DNA of 64,000 nucleotides from Synergistaceae bacterium (GTDB lineage: Bacteria > Synergistota > Synergistia > Synergistales > Aminobacteriaceae): the NCBI GenBank assembly GCA_018436595.1, contig JAHDLC010000036.1:1-64000 (forward strand), read 5' to 3'. Below are positions 12,765-24,072 of this stretch, piece by piece (position 1 is the stretch's first letter; every line of letters begins with the position of its first letter). The position numbers and the translations under genes were made by a program. The notes below the pieces were generated by a model. That model saw nothing but the letters and a program-made list of their open reading frames with translations. It searched no databases and was not told where the DNA came from.

Positions 12765-14054
12765 CTACCCCATCCGCAGATCCTCGATCCCGAGCTCGGA
12801 CAGGTCCAGATCGTTGACCCGAATTTCGCCGGTCATCAGTTTGTGGAGAATCGTGCGGAAGAGATCAAGTAATTGAAGACGTCGCTTTTGATGAACATCC
12901 AGCTTCTGTTCTAGCAATAAAGATACGCTTGTAATCTCGTTTTGCTCATCAATTCCTGGAACAGGAACCAACATATCCTGCAGTGTTCTCGAATTGATGT
13001 TGAATTTTCCATCCGCTGTACGAATAGCACGCCCTGAAAGGAACGAAGAGCCAATCGCAGTCCGGGAGTACTCATTGATAAATTCCGGCGACAACTTTTC
13101 ACCAGTAATACGCACACGAATCAAGTATGAAGCGAAGTAGCAATTATTACCAAGTTCTCCTCGATAAATGGAACATCGCCCGGCGTTCTCTTTTACACCA
13201 TTCGTCCTCACAAAGAGCAAATCACCATGTTTTAACTTCAACTGCTCAACTTCGTTATGTTTTGGTTTCCCAAATTTGAGATCAGAAACATCTACAGGGC
13301 CGCCGACAATATTGGGGATTCGGAGTACAGGTACTCCGTCTGCCTCATAGTTACATTTGACCGATGTACCGTATTGAAATGAATCTACAATATCACCGAG
13401 ACGAAATACTTCCCAATTTTCAGGTATCAATCCAATATCGGTTTCCTTCAACTTTTTCCCATGCGTGCCTTCGGTAAAGAGCTTCTGCATCAGCGCCTTC
13501 TTGAGTTCCGTCGTTAAGGAAATCAGGCGTTCCTGCTGTTCGATAGCTCGCTGCAAAAAAGACAATAGACCTGCAATATTCCTTTGTTCAATCAAATCAG
13601 GTTTCGGCATTAGTAGTTCAGCGAGCCGTGAAATAGACATATTGGGAATGGTCGTTACATTTTTTCTTCCAAAATATACGTCGCCAATCTTGAACCCATA
13701 CCAGAACCAGTAGAGGGCGAACTCAGGCTCAATTTTTCCATTCACAGCGCGAAGACGGTGGAGATGGTTTTGGTAGTAGCACCCAGGGAATTGGTTCTTC
13801 AAAATGGCCGTTCGCCCCACGTCGCCCCCTTCGCAAAGGAGCAAATCTCCTTCTTTTAGTGCGAGTCGTTCTTCATCTCTCTCATTGAAATGCATATGAT
13901 CAAGTTCCGATAGATCAAGACACCCCCAATTGACATTTTTTGTCCGAAGAAACGGACGTTGGTTGCTCCCGATACGATTTCTTTTTGAGACTTGCTTCCC
14001 CTGCTGAATAGCGAATACCGCATCAACTCGCACAAGTGGCCACACTGTTGACAT
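12765..14054 (-). CDS. hsdS: Type I restriction-modification specificity subunit
   Basis: This subunit recognises the bipartite DNA target. It has two target recognition domains (about residues 5-170 and 200-390), each followed by a conserved helix: IEQRNIAGLLSFLQRAIEQQERLI in the centre and IDEQNEITSVSLLLEQKLDVHQKRRLQLLDLFRTILHKLMTGEIRV at the end. The ATG at 14054 has AAAGGA upstream; a TTG at 14084 is a possible longer start. The recognition domains are clearly more AT-rich than hsdM and hsdR, as expected for a part that is exchanged between strains. Its length (429 aa) is normal and no inverted duplicate gene is present, so there is no sign of phase switching. Confidence 0.94.
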   Translation of the reverse strand: MSTVWPLVRVDAVFAIQQGKQVSKRNRIGSNQRPFLRTKNVNWGCLDLSELDHMHFNERDEERLALKEGDLLLCEGGDVGRTAILKNQFPGCYYQNHLHRLRAVNGKIEPEFALYWFWYGFKIGDVYFGRKNVTTIPNMSISRLAELLMPKPDLIEQRNIAGLLSFLQRAIEQQERLISLTTELKKALMQKLFTEGTHGKKLKETDIGLIPENWEVFRLGDIVDSFQYGTSVKCNYEADGVPVLRIPNIVGGPVDVSDLKFGKPKHNEVEQLKLKHGDLLFVRTNGVKENAGRCSIYRGELGNNCYFASYLIRVRITGEKLSPEFINEYSRTAIGSSFLSGRAIRTADGKFNINSRTLQDMLVPVPGIDEQNEITSVSLLLEQKLDVHQKRRLQLLDLFRTILHKLMTGEIRVNDLDLSELGIEDLRMG

Positions 14055-14088
14055 AGAGTTTTTTTCCTTTAGGAGTTCCGACAACCGG

Positions 14089-15642
14089 TCACACCCCCAA
14101 CTTCCTGAGAACCGCCTTCAGGACCGCATTCGTCTCCGCAGTTTCGGCCTCAAGCGCTTCCAGTTCATCGAGGATTTCGCCGATGGGCCGGTACTCCTCG
14201 GCATCACCGACATGGATATACCGTGAGGGTGAAATGTTGTAGTCGGTGCGGGCGATTTCGCCCCCTGAAACAATCCGGCTGAACTTCTCCTCCTCGCGCC
14301 ATTCGAGGATCGCGGACGCTATCCGCTCTATTCCCTCATCGGGCAGGTAGTTCTTGGGGTCCCCCTTGGCAAAGACCTTCCCGGCGTTCACGAGAAGCAT
14401 CCTGCCCCTCCGCTCCGCTCCCTTGGCCCTGTTCAGAAAGAGAATGACGGCCGGTGCCGAGGTGTTGTAAAAGAGGTTTTCGGCCAGATAGACCACACCC
14501 TCGATCAAGTCCTGCTCCACAAACCACTTGCGGACTTCCCTCTCCTTGTTCCTGTTGACATTCCCCGATCCCCGGGAAGCGGCTCCGGTATCGAGGACAA
14601 CGGCGGCCTTTCCCGTGCCGTTCATTGACGCGGCGATATGCTGGATCCATCCCCAGTCAGCGGACTGCTTTCCGGGAAAACCCGCCCCCTGGGGAAAACG
14701 CCCGAGTTCGTCGCTGTCATAATCCTGTTCCGTGAACCAGTCCTGGTTCCACATGGGATTTGCCACAACCCGGTCGAAGGTCTGCAGACGGCCTTCCCTG
14801 CGGAACTTTGGATTCCGGAAGGTGTCGCCTATCTCGATTTTGCCCTCCATGTCGTGAATGATCATGTTCATGTTGGCCATGGCCCATGTGCCGCCGATGT
14901 ATTCCTGTCCGAAAAGCCGGAGGGGGGCCGAATTTCCTTCGTTCATGGCGGTAATTTTCTCTTTCGCCACGGACTGACACTTGATCAGAAGCCCTGCCGA
15001 TCCGCAGCACGGATCATAAACAGTCATCCCCGGCTCGGGATCCATGATCTTGGCCATGACGAGGCCAACCTCCATGGGGGTGTAAAACTCGCCGGCCGAC
15101 TGCCCAGAACCCTCGGCGAACTTTCGGATAAGATATTCATAGCTTCGGCCGATAATATCGGGCTCCACGTCGTCAAGGCCAAGCCGCTTTTCGGAGATCT
15201 TCTCGATCAGGTTGGAGAGGCGGTCGTCGTCAATGTCCCGCTGGCCGTGGGTGGTGGCGTTGAAATCAACGCGGTCGATGATTCCCTCCAGCAGCGGATT
15301 CGCCCTGGCTATGCCCCGAAGAAGAGTGGTGAGCTGCTCGCCGATCTTGTCGGACAGTCGCCGGATGACCGACCAGACCGGATCTTCTGAGTTTTCAGGC
15401 TGCAAGGGCAGAAAGAAACGCACCAGTTTCCGGTCGTTGGCAACCAGCCTGAATGCCTTGCTCCGCGAACCGACCTCTTTGGCGATCCTGTTGAGCTCGT
15501 CGTCAAACACGTCGCAGAGTCGTTTTGTGAAAACAAGAGGAAGAATGAAGTCCTTGTATTTCGGGGCGTCCTGGGCGCCCCGGATGCTGCAGGCAGCATC
15601 CCATATCCATGATTCGAGAGATTTTCCGTTGCCGTTTGCCAT
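14089..15642 (-). CDS. hsdM: Type I restriction-modification methyltransferase
   Basis: This 517-aa subunit makes N6-methyladenine in the recognition site. It has the N-terminal HsdM helical domain (SLESWIWDAACSIRGAQDAPKYKDFILPLVFTKRL), then an N6-MTase core with the SAM-binding motif TVYDPCCGSAGLLIK and the catalytic motif VVANPMWNQDW. The usual catalytic motif is NPPF, so NPMW is a variant at this place. An ATG at 15642 is preferred over the TTG at 15687 because it starts at the conserved sequence. It is followed by hsdS after 34 nt and preceded by the DUF2806 gene, apparently in one operon. Confidence 0.95.
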   Translation of the reverse strand: MANGNGKSLESWIWDAACSIRGAQDAPKYKDFILPLVFTKRLCDVFDDELNRIAKEVGSRSKAFRLVANDRKLVRFFLPLQPENSEDPVWSVIRRLSDKIGEQLTTLLRGIARANPLLEGIIDRVDFNATTHGQRDIDDDRLSNLIEKISEKRLGLDDVEPDIIGRSYEYLIRKFAEGSGQSAGEFYTPMEVGLVMAKIMDPEPGMTVYDPCCGSAGLLIKCQSVAKEKITAMNEGNSAPLRLFGQEYIGGTWAMANMNMIIHDMEGKIEIGDTFRNPKFRREGRLQTFDRVVANPMWNQDWFTEQDYDSDELGRFPQGAGFPGKQSADWGWIQHIAASMNGTGKAAVVLDTGAASRGSGNVNRNKEREVRKWFVEQDLIEGVVYLAENLFYNTSAPAVILFLNRAKGAERRGRMLLVNAGKVFAKGDPKNYLPDEGIERIASAILEWREEEKFSRIVSGGEIARTDYNISPSRYIHVGDAEEYRPIGEILDELEALEAETAETNAVLKAVLRKLGV

Positions 15643-15697
15643 CAGTCTTTTCTCGCTTTCAGTGTTTTGGCCAATTTGCAGGGTCAACTTGTTAATT

Positions 15698-16543
15698 TTA
15701 CCTCTTCGGCACTAAAGACTGTTCTTCCCAACTTGCGTAAACGAAGTCAAAGAATTCATCAATAGGCTTAGAACCACAGATGGGGAAAAGCTCTTGACCA
15801 GCTTGTGTTAAGAGTACTTTCCCAAGAGACAGGTCGTTTTCAGTATCCTTTGGAAAAGTAAGCTCCACTGGTCTTTCGTAATAGGATACTGTTATCTTCT
15901 TGGGCAACTTCATGCGTCGATAGCCTGCAAGGTCATTGAAATGCACCAATCCGAGGCTTTCTAAATGGCTTAGGGCATTGAAATTAATATAATGCCGACT
16001 GTAAATCTCTTGATGAACATCAAACACAAGAGGAACATAATTGTTTATAGTCCAGCAAAAGCTACAAAGGTAAACGAATAAATCCGCATCACTTTTATCT
16101 AAATCTGCTAACAAATTTACGGTTTTTCTTGAAAATTTCCCAGGGAGGTTTGCTTCCTCAGCTAGAAGCCTCGACCATAACTTTTGCATATCAGCATCCG
16201 AAACAATTCGGCACTTGTCAAAAAAGTTCGTAATCCAGTCATCCTGAACATCTTGAGGCGAGGCCTCTTCATTGAGGTGTAAGATGGCTTCCTGAGTGAT
16301 GTTTTCAATATTAGACTGTTTTTTTGCTTCTTCCTCAAAGAAGCGGAATGCAGCCCGCCGATAAAGATCAGTGACTTGAATATGAGATTCTGCTTCAATG
16401 ATTGCTGCTTGAGCCTCTGCTTTTGCACATCTAACAATCTGGAAGGGCTTGAAGAAACCCCCCAAAGCATCCGAGATTTTTTCAATCAAAAAAGTTGCAG
16501 GCTTTGAAAGGTCACCGAGTTTTGCTATTGGATTTTCGCTCAT
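15698..16543 (-). CDS. DUF2806 domain protein in the restriction operon
   Basis: This 281-aa protein matches the DUF2806 pattern: an N-terminal hydrophobic-amphipathic region (LGDLSKPATFLIEKISDALGGFFKPFQIVRCAKAEAQAA), a charged helical stretch rich in Glu and Lys, and the conserved block DDWITNFFDKCRIVSDADMQKLWSRLLAEEANLPGKFSRKTVNLLADLDKSDADLF. No enzymatic motif is visible. It is more AT-rich than the core genes. It sits directly upstream of hsdM and overlaps the small upstream ORF by 4 nt (ATGA). DUF2806 proteins are uncharacterised and often occur in defence loci, so a defence accessory role is an inference from position. Confidence 0.82.
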   Translation of the reverse strand: MSENPIAKLGDLSKPATFLIEKISDALGGFFKPFQIVRCAKAEAQAAIIEAESHIQVTDLYRRAAFRFFEEEAKKQSNIENITQEAILHLNEEASPQDVQDDWITNFFDKCRIVSDADMQKLWSRLLAEEANLPGKFSRKTVNLLADLDKSDADLFVYLCSFCWTINNYVPLVFDVHQEIYSRHYINFNALSHLESLGLVHFNDLAGYRRMKLPKKITVSYYERPVELTFPKDTENDLSLGKVLLTQAGQELFPICGSKPIDEFFDFVYASWEEQSLVPKR

Positions 16544-16871: not shown

Positions 16872-16900
16872 TTGACAGAACCGGAATGCTCGGGTACTAT
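16872..16900 (+). promoter_or_regulatory. Promoter of the first attenuator
   Basis: TTGACA at 16872-16877 and TACTAT at 16895-16900 are separated by 17 nt. Transcription would start near 16907, 37 nt before the leader peptide start codon. The consensus -35 and good spacing support a sigma-70-type promoter. Confidence 0.75.
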
Positions 16901-16943
16901 GCTCCCTAAACTTTTTCACCAGCCGGGAGAGGAGGATACGCAC

Positions 16944-17030
16944 GTGACACGGATTTCTCAGCCATTACTTTCAGCCGTTCTTAACGCCATGATGATGCGC
17001 AGCGACCCTCCTGGAGCCGGGGGCGCCTAG
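16944..17030 (+). CDS. Leader peptide with a Met-Met-Met run (attenuator 1)
   Basis: This 28-codon ORF starts with GTG after GAGAGGAGGAT and begins MTRISQPLLSAVL. Its last part is NAMMMRSDPPGAGGA and it ends in TAG. Three consecutive ATG codons (16989-16997) are the obvious sensing codons. The following GACCCTCC (17004-17011, Asp-Pro-Pro) can pair with GGGGGTC in the terminator (17057-17063). A second leader at 21641-21730 shares the RBS, the length, the SxDPPGxxGA-like end and the same 53-nt spacing, which argues that both are translated and regulatory. Confidence 0.78.
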   Translation: MTRISQPLLSAVLNAMMMRSDPPGAGGA

Positions 17031-17052
17031 TTTCGCGCGTCTTTTGAGCTTC

Positions 17053-17097
17053 AGCCGGGGGTCTTCGGAAACATCGAAGGCCCCCGGCTTTTTTTTA
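17053..17097 (+). terminator. Attenuator terminator 1
   Basis: AGCCGGGGGTCTTCG at 17053-17067 pairs with CGAAGGCCCCCGGCT at 17075-17089, a perfect 15-bp stem, followed by eight T residues. It ends 34 nt before the ATG of the 418-aa gene, so read-through is required for expression. In leader 1 an extra copy of AGCCGGGGGC at 17015-17024 could also pair with the 3' arm. Confidence 0.9.
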
Positions 17098-17130
17098 TGG
17101 AAAAAACACACTACGAGGAGGTTTTTTGCA

Positions 17131-18387
17131 ATGCAGAACAGCGTGTTCCAGATCAGCGGAGAAACAGTTAAGCACCTTAATTCTTTCCTTTCCGATCCCG
17201 CAAACGGGGCGGTTTCGGACCTCAGGAGGATCGTGGCGAAGTTCGGCTCGGTGAGCGAGATCAACGAGCGGGCCCGGGAAGCGGGAAAAGTGGAAAATCT
17301 CGTCAAAAAACTGGAACGGATCAATTCCCCCCACGTAAAGGACCTTGAATGGCTCGCGGAGATCCGCGACGGGGGGAAGCTGGTCTCTCTGTCAGACTAC
17401 CGGGCACGGATCAACCCCGGCCGGCCTTCATGGGACTATGACCATTCCCGGGCGGCGACCCTGGAGATCAGCGCTCTGCAGTATTTCCCCTGGCTTCTCG
17501 CCGAAGTTCGCCAGTGCGTGGAAAAGGGGGAGGTGCTCCCCGGCAGGTTCATCCGGGTACGGAAGATGAAAGAGCAGGAAGCGGATGGGGGCGACCTTCC
17601 CGCCGTTCACGCCGCCCTGAAAATTCTCGGCGCCTCCTGCGTGGAAACCCTGGACACCAAGGGCGTGGACGGTTCAAACGTCCACCTCGGCGGGCCCGAG
17701 ACCATCACGGGCTACTTCGGCGGCATCGGCCAGCCCAACAGCCACCCTCTGCGGTGGGTGGAGGAAGCGCTGTACTACTACGTGAACTACGGTGTGGACG
17801 AGATCCTCAACATCAATCCCGGGACGGTGTTCCTGGGCTACCTGCTCTACCGCATGGGCGTGGACATCCGGTTCAAAATCTCCGTTTTCATGGGGAACGA
17901 CAACCCCTATGCGGTTCTCTGGACCCTGCTTGCGGCCCGGCTGTTCGCCCGGGAGGACGGAAGCACCCCCCTGGCAGGCTTCAATCTTTCCAACTCCATC
18001 GACGACGTCCACCTTGCGAAGGCCGCGGAAATCCGCAGATCCCTCGGCCTGGAGGACCACGTGCGGATCGAACACCATATTACGGAGACCTGGAAGAGCA
18101 TCGTCCGCCAACCCTACAACCGCCGGGACGGACTTCTGGAGCTGGTGAAGACGGTACCCAACATTTCGGCGAAACATGAGGGGGGCAACCCGGAGGACGA
18201 GCAGACCCTCGCCCATCCGTCGGATATCCTCGACTACTTCCGGGAGAAAAAAGAAATCGAGTCGGCAGGGGAGATGGACGCCCTCACCCAAAACTTCCTG
18301 CTGAAGCACAAGGCTGCGAACGACACGGCGGCGGTCCTCACGAAGGCGGGGCTCTCCTTCGTGGCGGCGGGAGCTCACAGGCTCTAG
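17131..18387 (+). CDS. Conserved protein of unknown function under Met-codon attenuation
   Basis: I do not recognise the family of this 418-aa protein. It has no signal peptide or membrane segment. The N-terminal 100 residues are helical (ISGETVKHLNSFL, SVSEINERAREAGKVENLVKKL). The larger part looks like an alpha/beta barrel, with striking conserved-looking blocks: DTKGVDGSNVHLGGPETITGYFGGIGQPNSHP, YYVNYGVDEILNINPGTVFLGYLLYRMG, FMGNDNPYAVLWTLLAARLF, GFNLSNSIDD, RIEHHITETWKSIVRQPYNRR and SAKHEGGNPEDEQTLAHP. Several His, Asp and Glu residues could hold a metal. The ATG at 17131 follows GAGGAGG. The gene is single-copy in its unit, with an attenuator before it and a terminator after it. The Met-rich leader suggests a role in methionine metabolism; that is inference. 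Confidence 0.85.
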   Translation: MQNSVFQISGETVKHLNSFLSDPANGAVSDLRRIVAKFGSVSEINERAREAGKVENLVKKLERINSPHVKDLEWLAEIRDGGKLVSLSDYRARINPGRPSWDYDHSRAATLEISALQYFPWLLAEVRQCVEKGEVLPGRFIRVRKMKEQEADGGDLPAVHAALKILGASCVETLDTKGVDGSNVHLGGPETITGYFGGIGQPNSHPLRWVEEALYYYVNYGVDEILNINPGTVFLGYLLYRMGVDIRFKISVFMGNDNPYAVLWTLLAARLFAREDGSTPLAGFNLSNSIDDVHLAKAAEIRRSLGLEDHVRIEHHITETWKSIVRQPYNRRDGLLELVKTVPNISAKHEGGNPEDEQTLAHPSDILDYFREKKEIESAGEMDALTQNFLLKHKAANDTAAVLTKAGLSFVAAGAHRL

Positions 18388-18480: not shown

Positions 18481-18627
18481 GCCTTCCGTCATATCCTGAC
18501 AGCGATCTGTTCATCAGATGACCGGACGGGAGGGCGATACGACGGAAAAAAGCCTGGCACCACCTGCGGAACCCTGTTGTGATTTTTACGAGGACAGCAT
18601 CGGACAACACGCCGGGAGGTGAAGCAC

Positions 18628-20013
18628 GTGCAGGTAACGTTCGCTTTTTACTGCGTCATAGCCTATCTGCTGGTCATCACAGTCGTCGGAATTTATTACG
18701 GGAAAAAGGTCAAAACCCAGGAGGACTATTCCGTGGCGGGGCGGTCCCTTCCGACTCCCATCCTCATCGGAACCCTCATGGCTACCTGGATGGGAGCGGG
18801 AACGGTCCTCGGCGGACCCGCCGCAAGCGGATACCAATACGGCCTCATGGCCGCCATCGCCTTTTCCATGGGATCCCCGGTGGGCCAGTTCGTCCTCTCC
18901 TTCGTCGCGAAGAAGATCCGGCGGATGAACGCCCAGACGGTACCTGAAGTTATCGAGAAGGTCTACGGCAGCCTTGCCCGCGTTCTCGCCACAGTCATCA
19001 TCATGCTCGCCTACATCGGGATCGTCGCCTACCAGTACAAGGGCGTGGGACTCATCCTGAACTCCATCCTCGGCGTCCCGGAAAATATCGGAACCCTCAT
19101 CGCCTTCGGCGTCATCGTGGTGACCGCCCTCTTCGGAGGCCTGTACTCGGTGGCGTACACCGACTTCCTGAGCTGCTGCATGATGATGGCCGGCCTCTTC
19201 ATCGGCGTGCCCATGGCGATCTCCATGGCCGGGGGCTGGAGCTGGGTGGCGGCGAACATCCCTCCGGGACATCTCGGATTCGGCTCCATTTCCTTCCCCC
19301 AGCTTCTCGGTTTCTTCTTCCCGGTGTTCTTCTACGTCATGGGCGACCAGAACATGTACCAGCGCTTCTTCGCGGCGAAGGATGAAAAAACGGCCATGCA
19401 GAGCGGCATCGGCTGGATGCTGGGATGCACGGCCACCTACTTCTTCGTGGCCGCCGCCGCCATCGCCGCCCGGGCCCTCTATCCGAACATCAACGCGGCC
19501 CAGTCCTTTGTCCACCTGGCGACCCACGGGATGCCCACCATCATCGGGGGGATCTGCGTAGCGGCCATTACGGCCTTCATCGTGACCACGGCGAACTCGT
19601 TCCTTCTTTCCGTGGGAGTGAACATGAGCTGGGACGTGTACGCCCGCTTCGTCAATCCGGAGGCACCCACGGAAAAGAAGCTCTTCGTCTCCAGAGCCAG
19701 CGTTCTGGGCCTGGGCATACTGGCCTACGTGGTCATCCAGTACTACCCTGAACTCCTCATCCTCCAGCAGTACACCTATACCATGTACGGCGCCGCCATT
19801 ACTCCGGCCCTTCTCGCTGCGGTCATGTTCCCCGAGAGGATCACCCCCCTGGGAGGGGTCGTCTCCATCTTCACCGGCGGAGCCGTCACCATCGCATGGG
19901 AAACCGCGAAAACCGCGGGCTGGGCCGTGGCGAAAACCTATCCGCCGGTGCTTATTGCGGCTCCCCTTGCCATACTGGCGCTGATCATTTTCAGGAAGAA
20001 CGGGAAAAAGTAA
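18628..20013 (+). CDS. Sodium:solute symporter (SSS) family transporter
   Basis: This roughly 461-aa membrane protein has about 13 hydrophobic segments. It begins with the typical SSS first helix and GIYYGKKVKTQEDYSVAGRSLPTPILIGTLMATWMGAGTVLGG, in which the RSLP and ATWMGAGT stretches match the sodium- and substrate-binding start of the family. The segment ALFGGLYSVAYTDFLSCCMM is the SSS signature. Of two in-frame GTG codons, 18628 has GGAGG at 8 nt, while the one at 18619 overlaps the RBS. It is followed after 19 nt by an amidohydrolase gene, so the imported compound is probably the substrate of that enzyme. The substrate itself is unknown. Confidence 0.92.
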   Translation: MQVTFAFYCVIAYLLVITVVGIYYGKKVKTQEDYSVAGRSLPTPILIGTLMATWMGAGTVLGGPAASGYQYGLMAAIAFSMGSPVGQFVLSFVAKKIRRMNAQTVPEVIEKVYGSLARVLATVIIMLAYIGIVAYQYKGVGLILNSILGVPENIGTLIAFGVIVVTALFGGLYSVAYTDFLSCCMMMAGLFIGVPMAISMAGGWSWVAANIPPGHLGFGSISFPQLLGFFFPVFFYVMGDQNMYQRFFAAKDEKTAMQSGIGWMLGCTATYFFVAAAAIAARALYPNINAAQSFVHLATHGMPTIIGGICVAAITAFIVTTANSFLLSVGVNMSWDVYARFVNPEAPTEKKLFVSRASVLGLGILAYVVIQYYPELLILQQYTYTMYGAAITPALLAAVMFPERITPLGGVVSIFTGGAVTIAWETAKTAGWAVAKTYPPVLIAAPLAILALIIFRKNGKK

Positions 20014-20032
20014 CCATAAGGAGGAGAAAGCA

Positions 20033-21256
20033 ATGAACCTCATTCTTTTTACCAACGCGACGCTTCTTGACTGTACGGGAAGCGACCCGGTTTTTCCTGC
20101 GTGGGTCGTTGCGGAGGACGGTGTCATTCGGGAAGTCGGGACTGGCTCCGCCCCGCACATCGCCGGAGCGGAAACGACGGACTGCGGGGGGAAAACCCTG
20201 ATGCCGGGCCTCATCGACGGGCATATGCACGCCTCGCTCTTCACCAACGACCTGGGGGAGCTTCACCGGAAAATCCTTCCCTCGACGGCGTGCTTCAGGG
20301 CGGCAAAAATTCTCGAGGATACGCTCATGCAGGGCTTCACCACCATCCGTGACGCCGGGGGCATCGATGCCGGCTTCCGGGAGGCCCAGAAGCAGGGGCT
20401 CATCACCGCCCCGAAAATGCAGGTATGCGGCCGGGCCATCTCCATGACCGGCGGCCATGCGGATCCGCGCCTTCCCACCGAGATAGCTCCTCCCGTCACC
20501 GTGGGAATGCTGGGCGTCATCGCCGACGGCGTGGACGAGGTGAGAAAGGCCGCCAGAGAACAGCTCCGTCTGGGGGCCGACTACATCAAGGTCATGGCCG
20601 GAGGGGGCTGCGCCAGCGCCGCCGACGAGCCCGACACGGTCCAGTACTCTCCCGAGGAGCTGGCAGCCATTGTCTACGAGGCGAAGGCTGCGGGCAAAAC
20701 GGTGCTCACCCACAACTACTCCACCCGGAGCATGAAGATGTGCGCCGAAGCGGGAGTCCACAGCATCGAGCACGGCAACTACCTCGACAGGGAGACGGCC
20801 CGGATTCTCAGGGAACACGGATGCTGGCTGGTGCCCACCATGGCCACCTACGAGATCATGGCCTCAAGGGGCGAGGAATTCGGCATCCCGTCCTATTTCC
20901 TGCGGAAGATGAAGGAAGTGCAGAAGCACTCGGAAAACGCCCTTGCCATCGCTTTCGAGGAGGGACTGAAGATCGGCTCGGGCTCCGACATGGTGGGCTC
21001 GGGGCAGCCCTTCAAGGCCCTTGAGATCGAGCTGAAGGCCAGGGTCATGGGCCCAATGAAGGCCATCCTCTGCACCACCCGGGACAACGCGGAACTTATG
21101 GGACTGTCCGACCGGGTGGGAACCATCGAGGCGGGCAAATGCGCCGACTTCATTCTCGTGGACGGAGACCCCCTGAAGGACGTCAGGATTTTCCAGAACA
21201 GGGAGAAGATCCTGGCTATCGTCCAGGACGGCAAATTCATCAAGAAAACGCTCTGA
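20033..21256 (+). CDS. Amidohydrolase family protein (imidazolonepropionase/prolidase-like)
   Basis: This 407-aa metal-dependent hydrolase has the composite beta and TIM-barrel fold of the amidohydrolase superfamily. Motifs are GLIDGHMHASLF (HxH metal ligands), TTIRDAGG, a Lys in GADYIKVMAGGG (probable carbamylated metal bridge), TVLTHNYSTRSMKMC, SIEHGNYLD and the catalytic Asp in IGSGSDMVG. The ending GTIEAGKCADFILVDGDPLKD is typical of the family. The sequence resembles the group that includes Xaa-Pro dipeptidases and imidazolonepropionases. It is co-transcribed with the upstream SSS symporter and is followed by an intrinsic terminator. Confidence 0.9.
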   Translation: MNLILFTNATLLDCTGSDPVFPAWVVAEDGVIREVGTGSAPHIAGAETTDCGGKTLMPGLIDGHMHASLFTNDLGELHRKILPSTACFRAAKILEDTLMQGFTTIRDAGGIDAGFREAQKQGLITAPKMQVCGRAISMTGGHADPRLPTEIAPPVTVGMLGVIADGVDEVRKAAREQLRLGADYIKVMAGGGCASAADEPDTVQYSPEELAAIVYEAKAAGKTVLTHNYSTRSMKMCAEAGVHSIEHGNYLDRETARILREHGCWLVPTMATYEIMASRGEEFGIPSYFLRKMKEVQKHSENALAIAFEEGLKIGSGSDMVGSGQPFKALEIELKARVMGPMKAILCTTRDNAELMGLSDRVGTIEAGKCADFILVDGDPLKDVRIFQNREKILAIVQDGKFIKKTL

Positions 21257-21572: not shown

Positions 21573-21601
21573 TTGACAGGGGGCCTTTCGGGGCGTATCA
21601 T
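21573..21601 (+). promoter_or_regulatory. Promoter of the second attenuator (aspartokinase operon)
   Basis: TTGACA at 21573-21578 and TATCAT at 21596-21601 are separated by 17 nt. This is the same layout as the promoter at 16872, and the leader peptide begins 39 nt after the -10 box in place of 43. Confidence 0.78.
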
Positions 21602-21640: not shown

Positions 21641-21730
21641 GTGAGCATGAAACCAGCAGTTCCCCATCATCCCGCAGCCTGTGCCATGACGATGACTAGC
21701 GGCGACCCTCCTGGAGAGGTCGGCGCCTGA
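21641..21730 (+). CDS. Leader peptide with a Met-Thr-Met-Thr run (attenuator 2)
   Basis: This 29-codon ORF starts at GTG 8 nt after AAAGGAG and begins MSMKPAVPHH. It ends ACAMTMTSGDPPGEVGA and TGA. ATG ACG ATG ACT at 21686-21697 places two Met and two Thr codons just before GACCCTCC (21704-21711), which can pair with the terminator arm GGGGGTC (21757-21763). Met and Thr are the end products of the pathway encoded downstream, so the codon choice fits ribosome-mediated attenuation. Confidence 0.82.
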   Translation: MSMKPAVPHHPAACAMTMTSGDPPGEVGA

Positions 21731-21752
21731 TCCGTTGTGCACCGACAGCTTC

Positions 21753-21792
21753 AGCCGGGGGTCTTCGTACAGAAGGCCCCCGGCTTTTTTTA
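21753..21792 (+). terminator. Attenuator terminator 2
   Basis: AGCCGGGGGTCTTC (21753-21766) pairs with GAAGGCCCCCGGCT (21772-21785) in a perfect 14-bp stem, followed by TTTTTTT. It ends 23 nt before the aspartokinase start. The stem sequence is the same as in attenuator 1. Confidence 0.92.
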
Positions 21793-21814: not shown

Positions 21815-23014
21815 GTGTGGAACAAGGGAGAAGGCGTAGTGCTCAAGTTCGGGGGAACGTCGGTGGCGAACCCTGAAAGGATCAGGGCCGGGGCAGGCCG
21901 GATCGCCGGTTTTTTCCGCTCGGGTCTCAGGGTGGCCGTGGTGGTGTCCGCCATGGGAAGCACCACCAACAGCCTGATCGCCCTCTCGGGTGAAACCTCG
22001 GGCGGGACGCCGGACAGAAGGGAGCTGGACCAGCTTCTTGCCACGGGGGAGCAGCAGTCGGCGGCCCTTATGGCCATGGAGCTCGGAAGGCAGGGATGCC
22101 CTGCGGTTTCCTTCACCGGCGCCCAGGCGGGATTTCTCGCCGGGGGTCCCTGGGGGGAGGGGCGCATCCTGTCCGTCAACCCGGTCCGGGTGGAAGAAGC
22201 CTGCGCCTCCGGGCGGGTTGCCGTGGTGACGGGGTTCCAGGCTGCTACAGCCTCTGGTGACACCATCACCCTGGGGCGGGGCGGGTCGGACCTTTCGGCC
22301 ATCGCCCTGGCGGGAGCCCTGGGAGCGGATTCATGCCGCATTTTCACCGACGTGGACGGGGTATTCTCGGCGGATCCCAGGAAGGTCCCCGGGGCGTTGA
22401 GGATCGGGCGGATCTCCTGGGAGGAATGCCTCGAAATGACTTTCCTCGGGGCGAAGGTGATGCAGTCCCGGAGCATCGAGATGGCGGAACGGCTGGAGCT
22501 GCCCCTGTGGGTGGGCTCCGGCGAAGGGGAGGGAACGTGGATCATGGGAAGAACGGTGGATGAGGCATTTCGGGCGTGTGCTGTGGTGTCGGACGAAAAT
22601 ATCGCCCTTCTTTCAGCGGAGGGATGCGGGAACGGAGGCTGTGACGTGGCGGAGGAGTTTTTCCTGCGGGGCATCCATATTCTGGCCGCCGCGGAACGGG
22701 GGTGTCCCTTGTTTTATATCCGCCGGGAGCGGCTGGAGGAAGCGGCGGAGATATGCCGCAGGATGTCGGGGAAATCTCCATCGGTGAACCCCGGTGCGGC
22801 GAGGGTCTCCGTGGTGGGGCCCGGGGCGGGAAACCACCCCGAGATCGGCAGGGCCATGCTGAAGGTCCTCGGCCGACTCGGCGCTCCGGCGCACCTTCTG
22901 ACCTCTTCGGGGCTCTCCGTAAGCTGCTTTGTGGATGAAAAGGACGCGCAGCCCGCGCTCCGCGCCCTGCACGAAGAATTCATCGAAAAGAAAGGGGAAT
23001 TTCAATGCGCGTAG
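21815..23014 (+). CDS. lysC: Aspartate kinase
   Basis: Aspartokinase phosphorylates aspartate, the first step toward Thr, Met and Lys. The 399-aa protein has the amino-acid kinase domain (VLKFGGTSVANPERI at the start, VVVSAMGSTTNSLIAL, TLGRGGSDLSAIALAGALGA, FTDVDGVFSADPR) and C-terminal ACT regulatory domains from about residue 255. The start is a GTG at 21815, preceded by AAGGGGG and placed just after the attenuator terminator; upstream in-frame codons would run through the terminator. It overlaps the homoserine dehydrogenase gene by 10 nt. Expression is probably controlled by the Met/Thr leader, and activity by the ACT domains. Confidence 0.94.
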   Translation: MWNKGEGVVLKFGGTSVANPERIRAGAGRIAGFFRSGLRVAVVVSAMGSTTNSLIALSGETSGGTPDRRELDQLLATGEQQSAALMAMELGRQGCPAVSFTGAQAGFLAGGPWGEGRILSVNPVRVEEACASGRVAVVTGFQAATASGDTITLGRGGSDLSAIALAGALGADSCRIFTDVDGVFSADPRKVPGALRIGRISWEECLEMTFLGAKVMQSRSIEMAERLELPLWVGSGEGEGTWIMGRTVDEAFRACAVVSDENIALLSAEGCGNGGCDVAEEFFLRGIHILAAAERGCPLFYIRRERLEEAAEICRRMSGKSPSVNPGAARVSVVGPGAGNHPEIGRAMLKVLGRLGAPAHLLTSSGLSVSCFVDEKDAQPALRALHEEFIEKKGEFQCA

Positions 23015-24072
23015 AAAAAGAATGGGGGCTGTGCTTCGTGGGGTTCGGCAACGTGGGTCAGGGGCTGGCCCGGCTGCTGGTGAAAAAGGAACAGGAGCTC
23101 GCTTCCAGGTGGGGCTTTTCATGCCGAACGCTGGCCGTAGTGGGAAAGACAAAGGGCGCCCTGGTCCGCCCCGAAGGGATCGGCCTGGCGGATCTTCTGC
23201 TCAGGGTCGGCCGGGGGGAGCCCCTGGGCTCGGACTCCGTTTCTCCGGTGGAGGCGGCGCTGCTTCCGGGAGTGGACATGGTGATCGACGTGACCCCCAC
23301 CAACCTGAAGGACGGCGAGCCGGGCCTGTCGCTCACCCGGGCCGCTCTCGAAGCGGGACGGCACGTGGTAACATCCGACAAGGGCCCCGTCTCCCTGGCC
23401 TTCCCGGAGCTGAAAAAACTGGCGGAAGCACGGGGCTGCAGCTACCGGTTCGAGGGTTCGGTGATGAGCGGGACCCCCTCCCTCAACCTGGCCCTTGAAT
23501 CCCTGGCGGGCTGCGATATCCTGGAGGCCAAGGGCATAATGAACGGCACCACCAATTACATCCTCACCCGCATGGAGGACGGGCTCGAATACGGCGAAGC
23601 CCTCCGGGAAGCCATGGAACGGGGGTATGCGGAGGCGGATCCGTCCGGGGACGTGGACGGCTGGGACGCGGCCGTGAAGGCCCAGATCCTTGCCGGAGTG
23701 GTGCTCGGCTCTTCCCTTTCCCTTTCATCGGTGAACCGCCGGGGGATCTCAGGGATCACGAAGAAGGACGTGGAGGACGCCCTGGCCCGGGGATACCGGA
23801 TCAAGCTGGTGGCGAAGGCCTCCCGTGCAGGGGGGACCGTCCGTGCGACGGTGGCTCCGGAGGAGGTTCCCCTGTCCCACCCGCTGGCCGGCGTTTCGGG
23901 GGCGACGAATGCCCTCACCTTCACCACCGACACCCTCGGCGACGTGACCATCATCGGCCCGGGAGCGGGAAGGGAGGAGACCGGGCAGGCTCTCCTGTCG
24001 GACATGCTCGCCATCGCCGCAGGCATGCGAAATACGAAGAGAAACCTAATAAAACAAAGCGTTTTCCATTGA
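23005..24072 (+). CDS. hom: Homoserine dehydrogenase
   Basis: This enzyme reduces aspartate semialdehyde to homoserine, the branch point for Thr and Met. The 355-aa protein has an N-terminal Rossmann motif (VGFGNVGQGLARLL), the conserved TSDKGPVSLAFPEL with the key Lys, and the catalytic domain sequence GTTNYILTRME...YAEADPSGDVDGWDAAVKAQILA. It lacks the C-terminal ACT domain found in 430-aa forms, so feedback on the enzyme may be weak and control may rest on the upstream attenuator. Its ATG lies inside the end of lysC with GAAAGGGG upstream. Confidence 0.95.
   Translation: MRVEKEWGLCFVGFGNVGQGLARLLVKKEQELASRWGFSCRTLAVVGKTKGALVRPEGIGLADLLLRVGRGEPLGSDSVSPVEAALLPGVDMVIDVTPTNLKDGEPGLSLTRAALEAGRHVVTSDKGPVSLAFPELKKLAEARGCSYRFEGSVMSGTPSLNLALESLAGCDILEAKGIMNGTTNYILTRMEDGLEYGEALREAMERGYAEADPSGDVDGWDAAVKAQILAGVVLGSSLSLSSVNRRGISGITKKDVEDALARGYRIKLVAKASRAGGTVRATVAPEEVPLSHPLAGVSGATNALTFTTDTLGDVTIIGPGAGREETGQALLSDMLAIAAGMRNTKRNLIKQSVFH

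Follow-up and report, generated by a model that had tools for sequence, protein, structure and literature searches.

In a stretch of 64,000 nucleotides from a Synergistaceae bacterium (hereafter the window), the gene for a 418-residue protein is preceded by an element that we read, with a probability of about 0.9, as a ribosome-mediated attenuator keyed to methionine codons; copies of the same attenuator cassette occur across the phylum Synergistota. The leader open reading frame, its codons, the terminator, a competing antiterminator, covariation and the match of codons to pathway are computed directly; we infer the stalling of the ribosome, the direction of the response and the amino acid sensed. 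The mechanism is classical ribosome-mediated attenuation of the trp, his, thr, leu and ilv type, and both the Met/Cys specificity and the exchangeable cassette are new relative to the papers searched.

Leader, antiterminator and terminator

The initial annotation had described a promoter, a ribosome binding site, a 28-codon leader with three ATG codons and a terminator with a U8 tract, all of which are found where it placed them (Table 1), with the correction that the terminator stem is 16 bp by folding and not 15 bp. The leader begins with GTG at 16944 and ends with TAG at 17028-17030, its C-terminus reading MMMRSDPPGAGGA, and it represents a short reading frame with a Shine-Dalgarno sequence ahead of a structural gene, conserved in relatives. 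An intrinsic terminator likewise stands before the gene, with a 5-nt loop, a stem at 17053-17089 of -31.3 kcal/mol, and the U8 tract at 17089-17096. A promoter scan over 1 kb returned three promoter-like sites against 0.5 expected, and TTGACA-17-TANNAT is also present upstream of two orthologous leaders (L002 and L003).

Table 1. Features of the two attenuators in the window and the genes that they precede.
Feature	Position	Strand	Basis
Sigma-70-type promoter TTGACA-17-TACTAT	16872..16900	+	Promoter scan; alike upstream of L002 and L003 leaders
Leader Shine-Dalgarno AGGAGG	16930..16935	+	Sequence; pairing with leader-tail CCUCCU in global MFE fold
Leader peptide ORF, GTG start, MTRISQPLLSAVLNAMMMRSDPPGAGGA, stop	16944..17030	+	Sequence; C-terminal cassette conserved in relatives
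Regulatory codons ATG ATG ATG (putative)	16989..16997	+	Sequence, relatives
Antiterminator hairpin, GACCCUCCUGGAGC paired with GCUUCAGCCGGGGGUC	17004..17063	+	Folding, -31.5 kcal/mol; leader:terminator covariation
Intrinsic terminator, 16-bp stem and U8	17053..17096	+	Sequence, folding, RNAalifold
Controlled gene (predicted), 418-aa protein, predicted TIM-barrel-like	17131..18387	+	Profile searches, predicted structure
Second-copy promoter TTGACA-17-TATCAT	21573..21601	+	Sequence
Second leader ORF, GTG start, MSMKPAVPHHPAACAMTMTSGDPPGEVGA, stop; Thr/Met codons	21641..21730	+	Covariance model, sequence
Second-copy terminator, -30.5 kcal/mol	21753..21792	+	Folding
Aspartate kinase, predicted to be controlled by second copy	21815..23014	+	Profile match
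Homoserine dehydrogenase, overlaps aspartate kinase gene	23005..24072	+	NCBIfam

When the RNA is folded only as far as the terminator 5' arm, with the 3' arm left out, it forms one long hairpin from 17004 to 17063; the proposed pairing of the leader with that arm is thereby upheld, although its extent is not the 7 bp first suggested. The antiterminator is near-equal in energy to the terminator and the arm AGCCGGGGGUC is common to both, such that leader and terminator form a bistable RNA with two mutually exclusive structures. The pairing also covaries, a check that the initial annotation had called for: among 37 distinct leaders, the segment 3' of the sensing codons pairs with the leader's own terminator arm at a mean of -17.1 kcal/mol, against -14.6 kcal/mol with the arms of other leaders, and the own pairs were equalled by 0 of 10,000 permutations. 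GACCC occurs with GGGTC, GGCCC with GGGCC, GGTCC with GGGACC, and GGATCC with GGATCC, and because these paired nucleotides change together they support an antiterminator built from the leader and the terminator arm. The antiterminators are, moreover, more stable than their shuffles, with a mean z of -2.6 (n=34) and values below -1 in 31 of the 34.

These structures suggest how the element would work. The leader would be translated while being transcribed, and the element would sense charged elongator tRNA-Met. With ample Met-tRNA the ribosome would pass the Met codons and reach the TAG, which lies within the antiterminator loop, so that a finishing ribosome would occupy the antiterminator and hold GACCCUCCUGGAGC apart from the terminator 5' arm; with that arm free, the terminator would form and transcription would stop. 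With scarce Met-tRNA the ribosome would stall on the ATG run, just 5' of the antiterminator, which would fold, take up the terminator 5' arm and allow RNA polymerase to enter the gene at 17131. By its footprint, a ribosome halted at either of the first two ATG codons would leave the antiterminator free. The leader Shine-Dalgarno sequence, which pairs with the CCUCC/CCUCCU of the tail in the global MFE fold, may in addition force termination when the leader is untranslated. If the attenuator reading is true, replacement of ATGATGATG by CTGCTGCTG would shift the response to leucine.

A covariance model of the orthologous leaders, seeded with Met leaders (R1), detects a second copy of the element within the window (21641-21790), immediately 5' of the genes for aspartate kinase and homoserine dehydrogenase. 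Its leader peptide ends in MTMTSGDPPGEVGA, with the sensing codons ATG ACG ATG ACT (Met-Thr-Met-Thr), which fits a pathway branch point leading to both amino acids, and a competing antiterminator of -34.6 kcal/mol is formed at approximately 21704-21766. Between the two attenuators (18619-21256) are a sodium:solute symporter gene and an Xaa-Pro-dipeptidase-like amidohydrolase gene, for which no leader of their own was noticed. By inspection, type I restriction-modification-like genes occupy the minus strand at 12765-16543, adjoined by a gene for a DUF2806 / TIGR03899 protein whose match to abortive-infection proteins is weak.

Conservation and exchange of the sensing codons

Orthologues of the 418-aa gene are present in 31 of 61 relatives, and 11 of their upstream regions (L001-L008, L013, L025, L028) keep the Met codon or codons, the tail, the pairing and the terminator, which is the conservation in relatives that the initial annotation had proposed as a test. 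In these 11 the leader closes with the Met codon(s), a short spacer, and G-D/G-P-P plus G-A or some variant, and the terminator comes next, which RNAalifold recovers with compensatory changes; the N-terminal part of the peptide has no conservation among the orthologous leaders, and some leaders of the 418-aa gene contain only one Met (AAAAMCGGPPG in L013/L049). In three (L005, L007 and L008) a stop codon precedes GGCGC, yet the GGCGC nucleotides are retained, and their outlasting the shift of the stop codon suggests that it is RNA rather than peptide that is under selection there. The leader is absent upstream of the 418-aa gene in several other relatives (L009, L010, L015-L024, L026, L027, L029). 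We note that one genome (G021; L006/L039) has two similar terminator hairpins in tandem 3' of the leader, and that in another (G055; L047) only a remnant of the 418-aa gene survives (residues 358-413) and the Met leader now stands before aspartate kinase, probably left behind after gene loss.

At E<=1e-6 the covariance models find the element in 118 of 188 Synergistota genomes, confirming the element and showing that it is no isolated case. The tail and terminator are constant across copies and the sensing codons are exchanged. According to NCBIfam the downstream genes encode MetX (L117), MetY (L105, L109), MetQ (L064, L092, L100), MetN (L045, L060, L068, L084), aspartate kinase (L036), homoserine dehydrogenase (L043, L053, L085), the acetolactate synthase small subunit (L061), ketol-acid reductoisomerase (L088) and phenylacetate-CoA ligase (L074). 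Met(-Cys) codons precede metN, metQ, metX, metY and the 418-aa gene, with the MMMC type in met genes; homoserine dehydrogenase and aspartate kinase leaders have TTTTTMTT, TTMTT or MTMT; in ilvN and ilvC leaders Ile, Val and Leu occur in runs; leuA leaders (leuA being recognised by sequence inspection) have LLL or LLLL; and phenylacetate-CoA ligase leaders have FFEYYY or FYFYYF. Retention of the RNA core while the sensing codons change amounts to a natural codon-swap experiment.

The association of Met codons with methionine genes was also seen with a second covariance model (R2), whose columns start 3' of the sensing codons and which was run on 37 genomes, with matches listed down to approximately E=1e-7, 107 of them with a readable leader. 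Downstream proteins were assigned by similarity to representatives, most verified by NCBIfam; the methionine genes include the 418-aa family, with aspartate kinase and homoserine dehydrogenase kept apart. Among the matches listed, two or more Met within a span of 11 residues were found in 25 of 26 methionine-gene leaders and in 2 of 74 others, for a Fisher probability of 4e-20 that overstates independence because the copies are related by descent; R2 was trained on matches of the Met-seeded R1, and although the codon columns were excluded the choice of family is possibly still biased. One of the two Met-rich exceptions is a 418-aa family member in a mis-picked frame (L042) and the other lies at a contig end (L277). 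Tandem codons thus match the downstream pathway, which for the 418-aa gene is the presumed one. Conserved Met codons and pairing, covariation, and the specificity of Met leaders for methionine genes together support the leader-peptide attenuator originally proposed.

Three further copies (on contigs C10 and C13) are present in the window's own genome, with Ile/Val codons before ilvN (L061), LCLLL before a leuA-like gene (L246) and LLLVLVLIII before another gene (L062). Phe/Tyr-rich leaders (L070, L074, L113, L268, L272) precede phenylacetate-CoA ligase genes, suggesting that an aromatic acid pathway is subject to attenuation by amino acid supply. Others rich in Phe, Tyr and Trp (L072, L082, L093, L095) stand before genes for a sodium:solute symporter and an amino acid ABC binding protein and before short ORFs, and their codons may reveal the transported amino acid; the sensing codons would in this way provide a readable label for assigning Synergistota transporters and orphan genes to an amino acid. 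One genus of the same family (g16, G070-G110, about 40 genomes) has almost no cassette copy, a lineage-specific loss. A loose pattern search with GRCCCTYCNGR gave no clear excess over the reversed control in most genomes.

Alternative readings and known systems

The Pro-Pro tail (GDPPG) raises the alternative of a nascent-chain arrest, with stalling at the prolines through EF-P, an antibiotic or a metabolite and not at the Met codons. Pro-Pro is a known slow motif and DPPG-type tails are conserved in many leaders, but the tail also becomes GSSPG, GVLPG, SLSG or GDPS while its nucleotides stay complementary to the terminator arm, GGCGC is kept even behind a stop codon, and the codons 5' of the tail match the pathway of the next gene, all of which make peptide arrest very unlikely. 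Still more improbable is direct recognition of SAM, methionine or uncharged tRNA by the RNA, as a riboswitch or T-box, with the reading frame incidental. Methionine genes of other phyla do have SAM riboswitches and T-boxes, and an RNA with two exclusive structures would suit such control, but no Rfam family, including the amino acid leader families, SAM riboswitches and T-box, has a covariance match at the curated threshold anywhere in the 64-kb window, and nearly every copy has a reading frame with a Shine-Dalgarno sequence and pathway-matched codons. One ligand pocket would moreover be insufficient, since a single RNA core stands before Met, Thr, Leu, Ile and Phe/Tyr genes alike.

A less remote alternative, though one we consider unlikely, is that the element senses cysteine, or methionine and cysteine jointly, rather than methionine alone. 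Among the matches listed, leaders of metQ, metX, metY and metN most often have MMMC, homocysteine requires sulfur, and because Cys often follows Met some copies may sense cysteine too; the copy in the window, however, reads MMMR, four orthologous leaders (L002, L003, L006, L008) also have no Cys at the sensing site, and the set examined contains no met gene whose leader has a Cys run but no Met. We favor an attenuator keyed to methionine codons.

Like the trp, his, thr, leu, ilv and phe attenuators of Proteobacteria, this attenuator would be governed by translation of a short leader containing pathway codons, its antiterminator and terminator are mutually exclusive, and its stop codon is placed such that a finishing ribosome would block the antiterminator. 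It differs from them in its Met or Met/Cys specificity, in belonging to another phylum, in matching no Rfam leader, and in a tail and terminator common to attenuators of many amino acids. Methionine genes are also under antitermination control by S-box (SAM) riboswitches and T-boxes; these bind a ligand or tRNA without translation, and neither family was detected in the window. The initial annotation knew of no well-described methionine version, and one proposal does exist, a metL leader before metNIQ in Streptomyces lividans, which according to its authors is without a clear Rho-independent terminator (PMC8079986). Like the present ones, that leader carries Met (and Cys) codons and stands before the genes of a methionine importer; it differs in its peptide (MSTTSDRTPATEATTTPGARCMCRRMCAF, then stop) without tandem Met, in being leaderless, and in its unrelated sequence (PMC8079986). 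It is the only methionine leader found in the full-text literature searched. No methionine leader appears in the passages searched of two attenuator surveys (PMC2965389, PMC1262725) and three RNA screens (PMC6429828, PMC8632094, PMC11109978), nor a shared cassette in those searched of the main texts of PMC8632094 and PMC6429828. These two, in the parts consulted, offer comparative predictions of amino-acid-specific leaders similar in kind to ours; the former, a genome-wide screen, predicts a uORF attenuator for cysS (uORFC-8-2), and the latter included the Synergistota member Thermovirga lienii. One paper on histidine regulation in Synergistetes deals with the HisR repressor and not with this cassette (PMC9413887). 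If our reading holds, methionine (with cysteine) joins the amino acids under leader-peptide attenuation, with support that far exceeds that of the one earlier proposal found.

The 418-residue protein

The downstream protein was initially called one of unknown family, which is borne out in that the family has no match in Pfam, NCBIfam or PDB sequences; profiles for MetX/MetA/MetY, MetE/MetH, MetF and HcyBio in Pfam and NCBIfam do not match it either. Its structure is confidently predicted (pLDDT 89) and barrel-like, and a structure search with the model found no solved fold at E<=1e-3. An identity as a methylenetetrahydrofolate reductase (MTHFR) or homocysteine methyltransferase was considered and set aside, there being only weak barrel matches among many barrels. 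Homologues of approximately 60% identity occur in Clostridia, Desulfobacterota, Chloroflexi, archaea and cyanobacteria. In an Rfam search near homologues outside the Synergistota no SAM riboswitch adjoins the gene; the T-box present at L130 and the c-di-GMP riboswitch at L163 both lie on the opposite strand and do not point at the homologue.

Among high-quality genomes of the phylum, homoserine acyltransferase occurs in 0 of 13 with a leader-controlled copy of the gene and in 23 of the 36 remaining, and MetY in 0 of 13 and 22 of 36, with kinship ignored in both counts and the 13 including two copies (L011, L012) behind homoserine dehydrogenase with a Thr/Met leader. Genomes with both the gene and MetX (G037, G041, G044, G046, G053, G058, G060) have no Met leader on it. 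The absence of MetX and MetY where the gene is leader-controlled may indicate a role in methionine or homocysteine synthesis, and since MetX, MetA, MetY, MetH, MetE, MetF and HcyBio are undetected in the window's genome (rated 100% complete), the 418-aa gene is perhaps the only candidate left there. A role in methionine or homocysteine supply is accordingly our leading hypothesis, albeit one with the odds against it, and we only tentatively suggest a new synthesis enzyme replacing the MetX/MetA and MetY steps; alternatively, the organism may be a methionine auxotroph in which the gene serves salvage. The codon label would thus point to an unannotated family of many phyla as a methionine gene where the known enzymes are missing.

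The presence of MetF and MetH alongside the 418-aa gene in six genomes (G001, G004, G012, G028, G036, G049) weakens the idea that this gene replaces MetF, and a partnership with HcyBio is rejected, PF01837 being found in 0 of 61 genomes. In the neighbourhoods of named genomes the only frequent same-strand partner is a PanB-like gene (18 loci, including L131, L154, L159 and L172), which does not point to methionine. At one further locus (L096) a PanB-like gene has a Val-rich leader.
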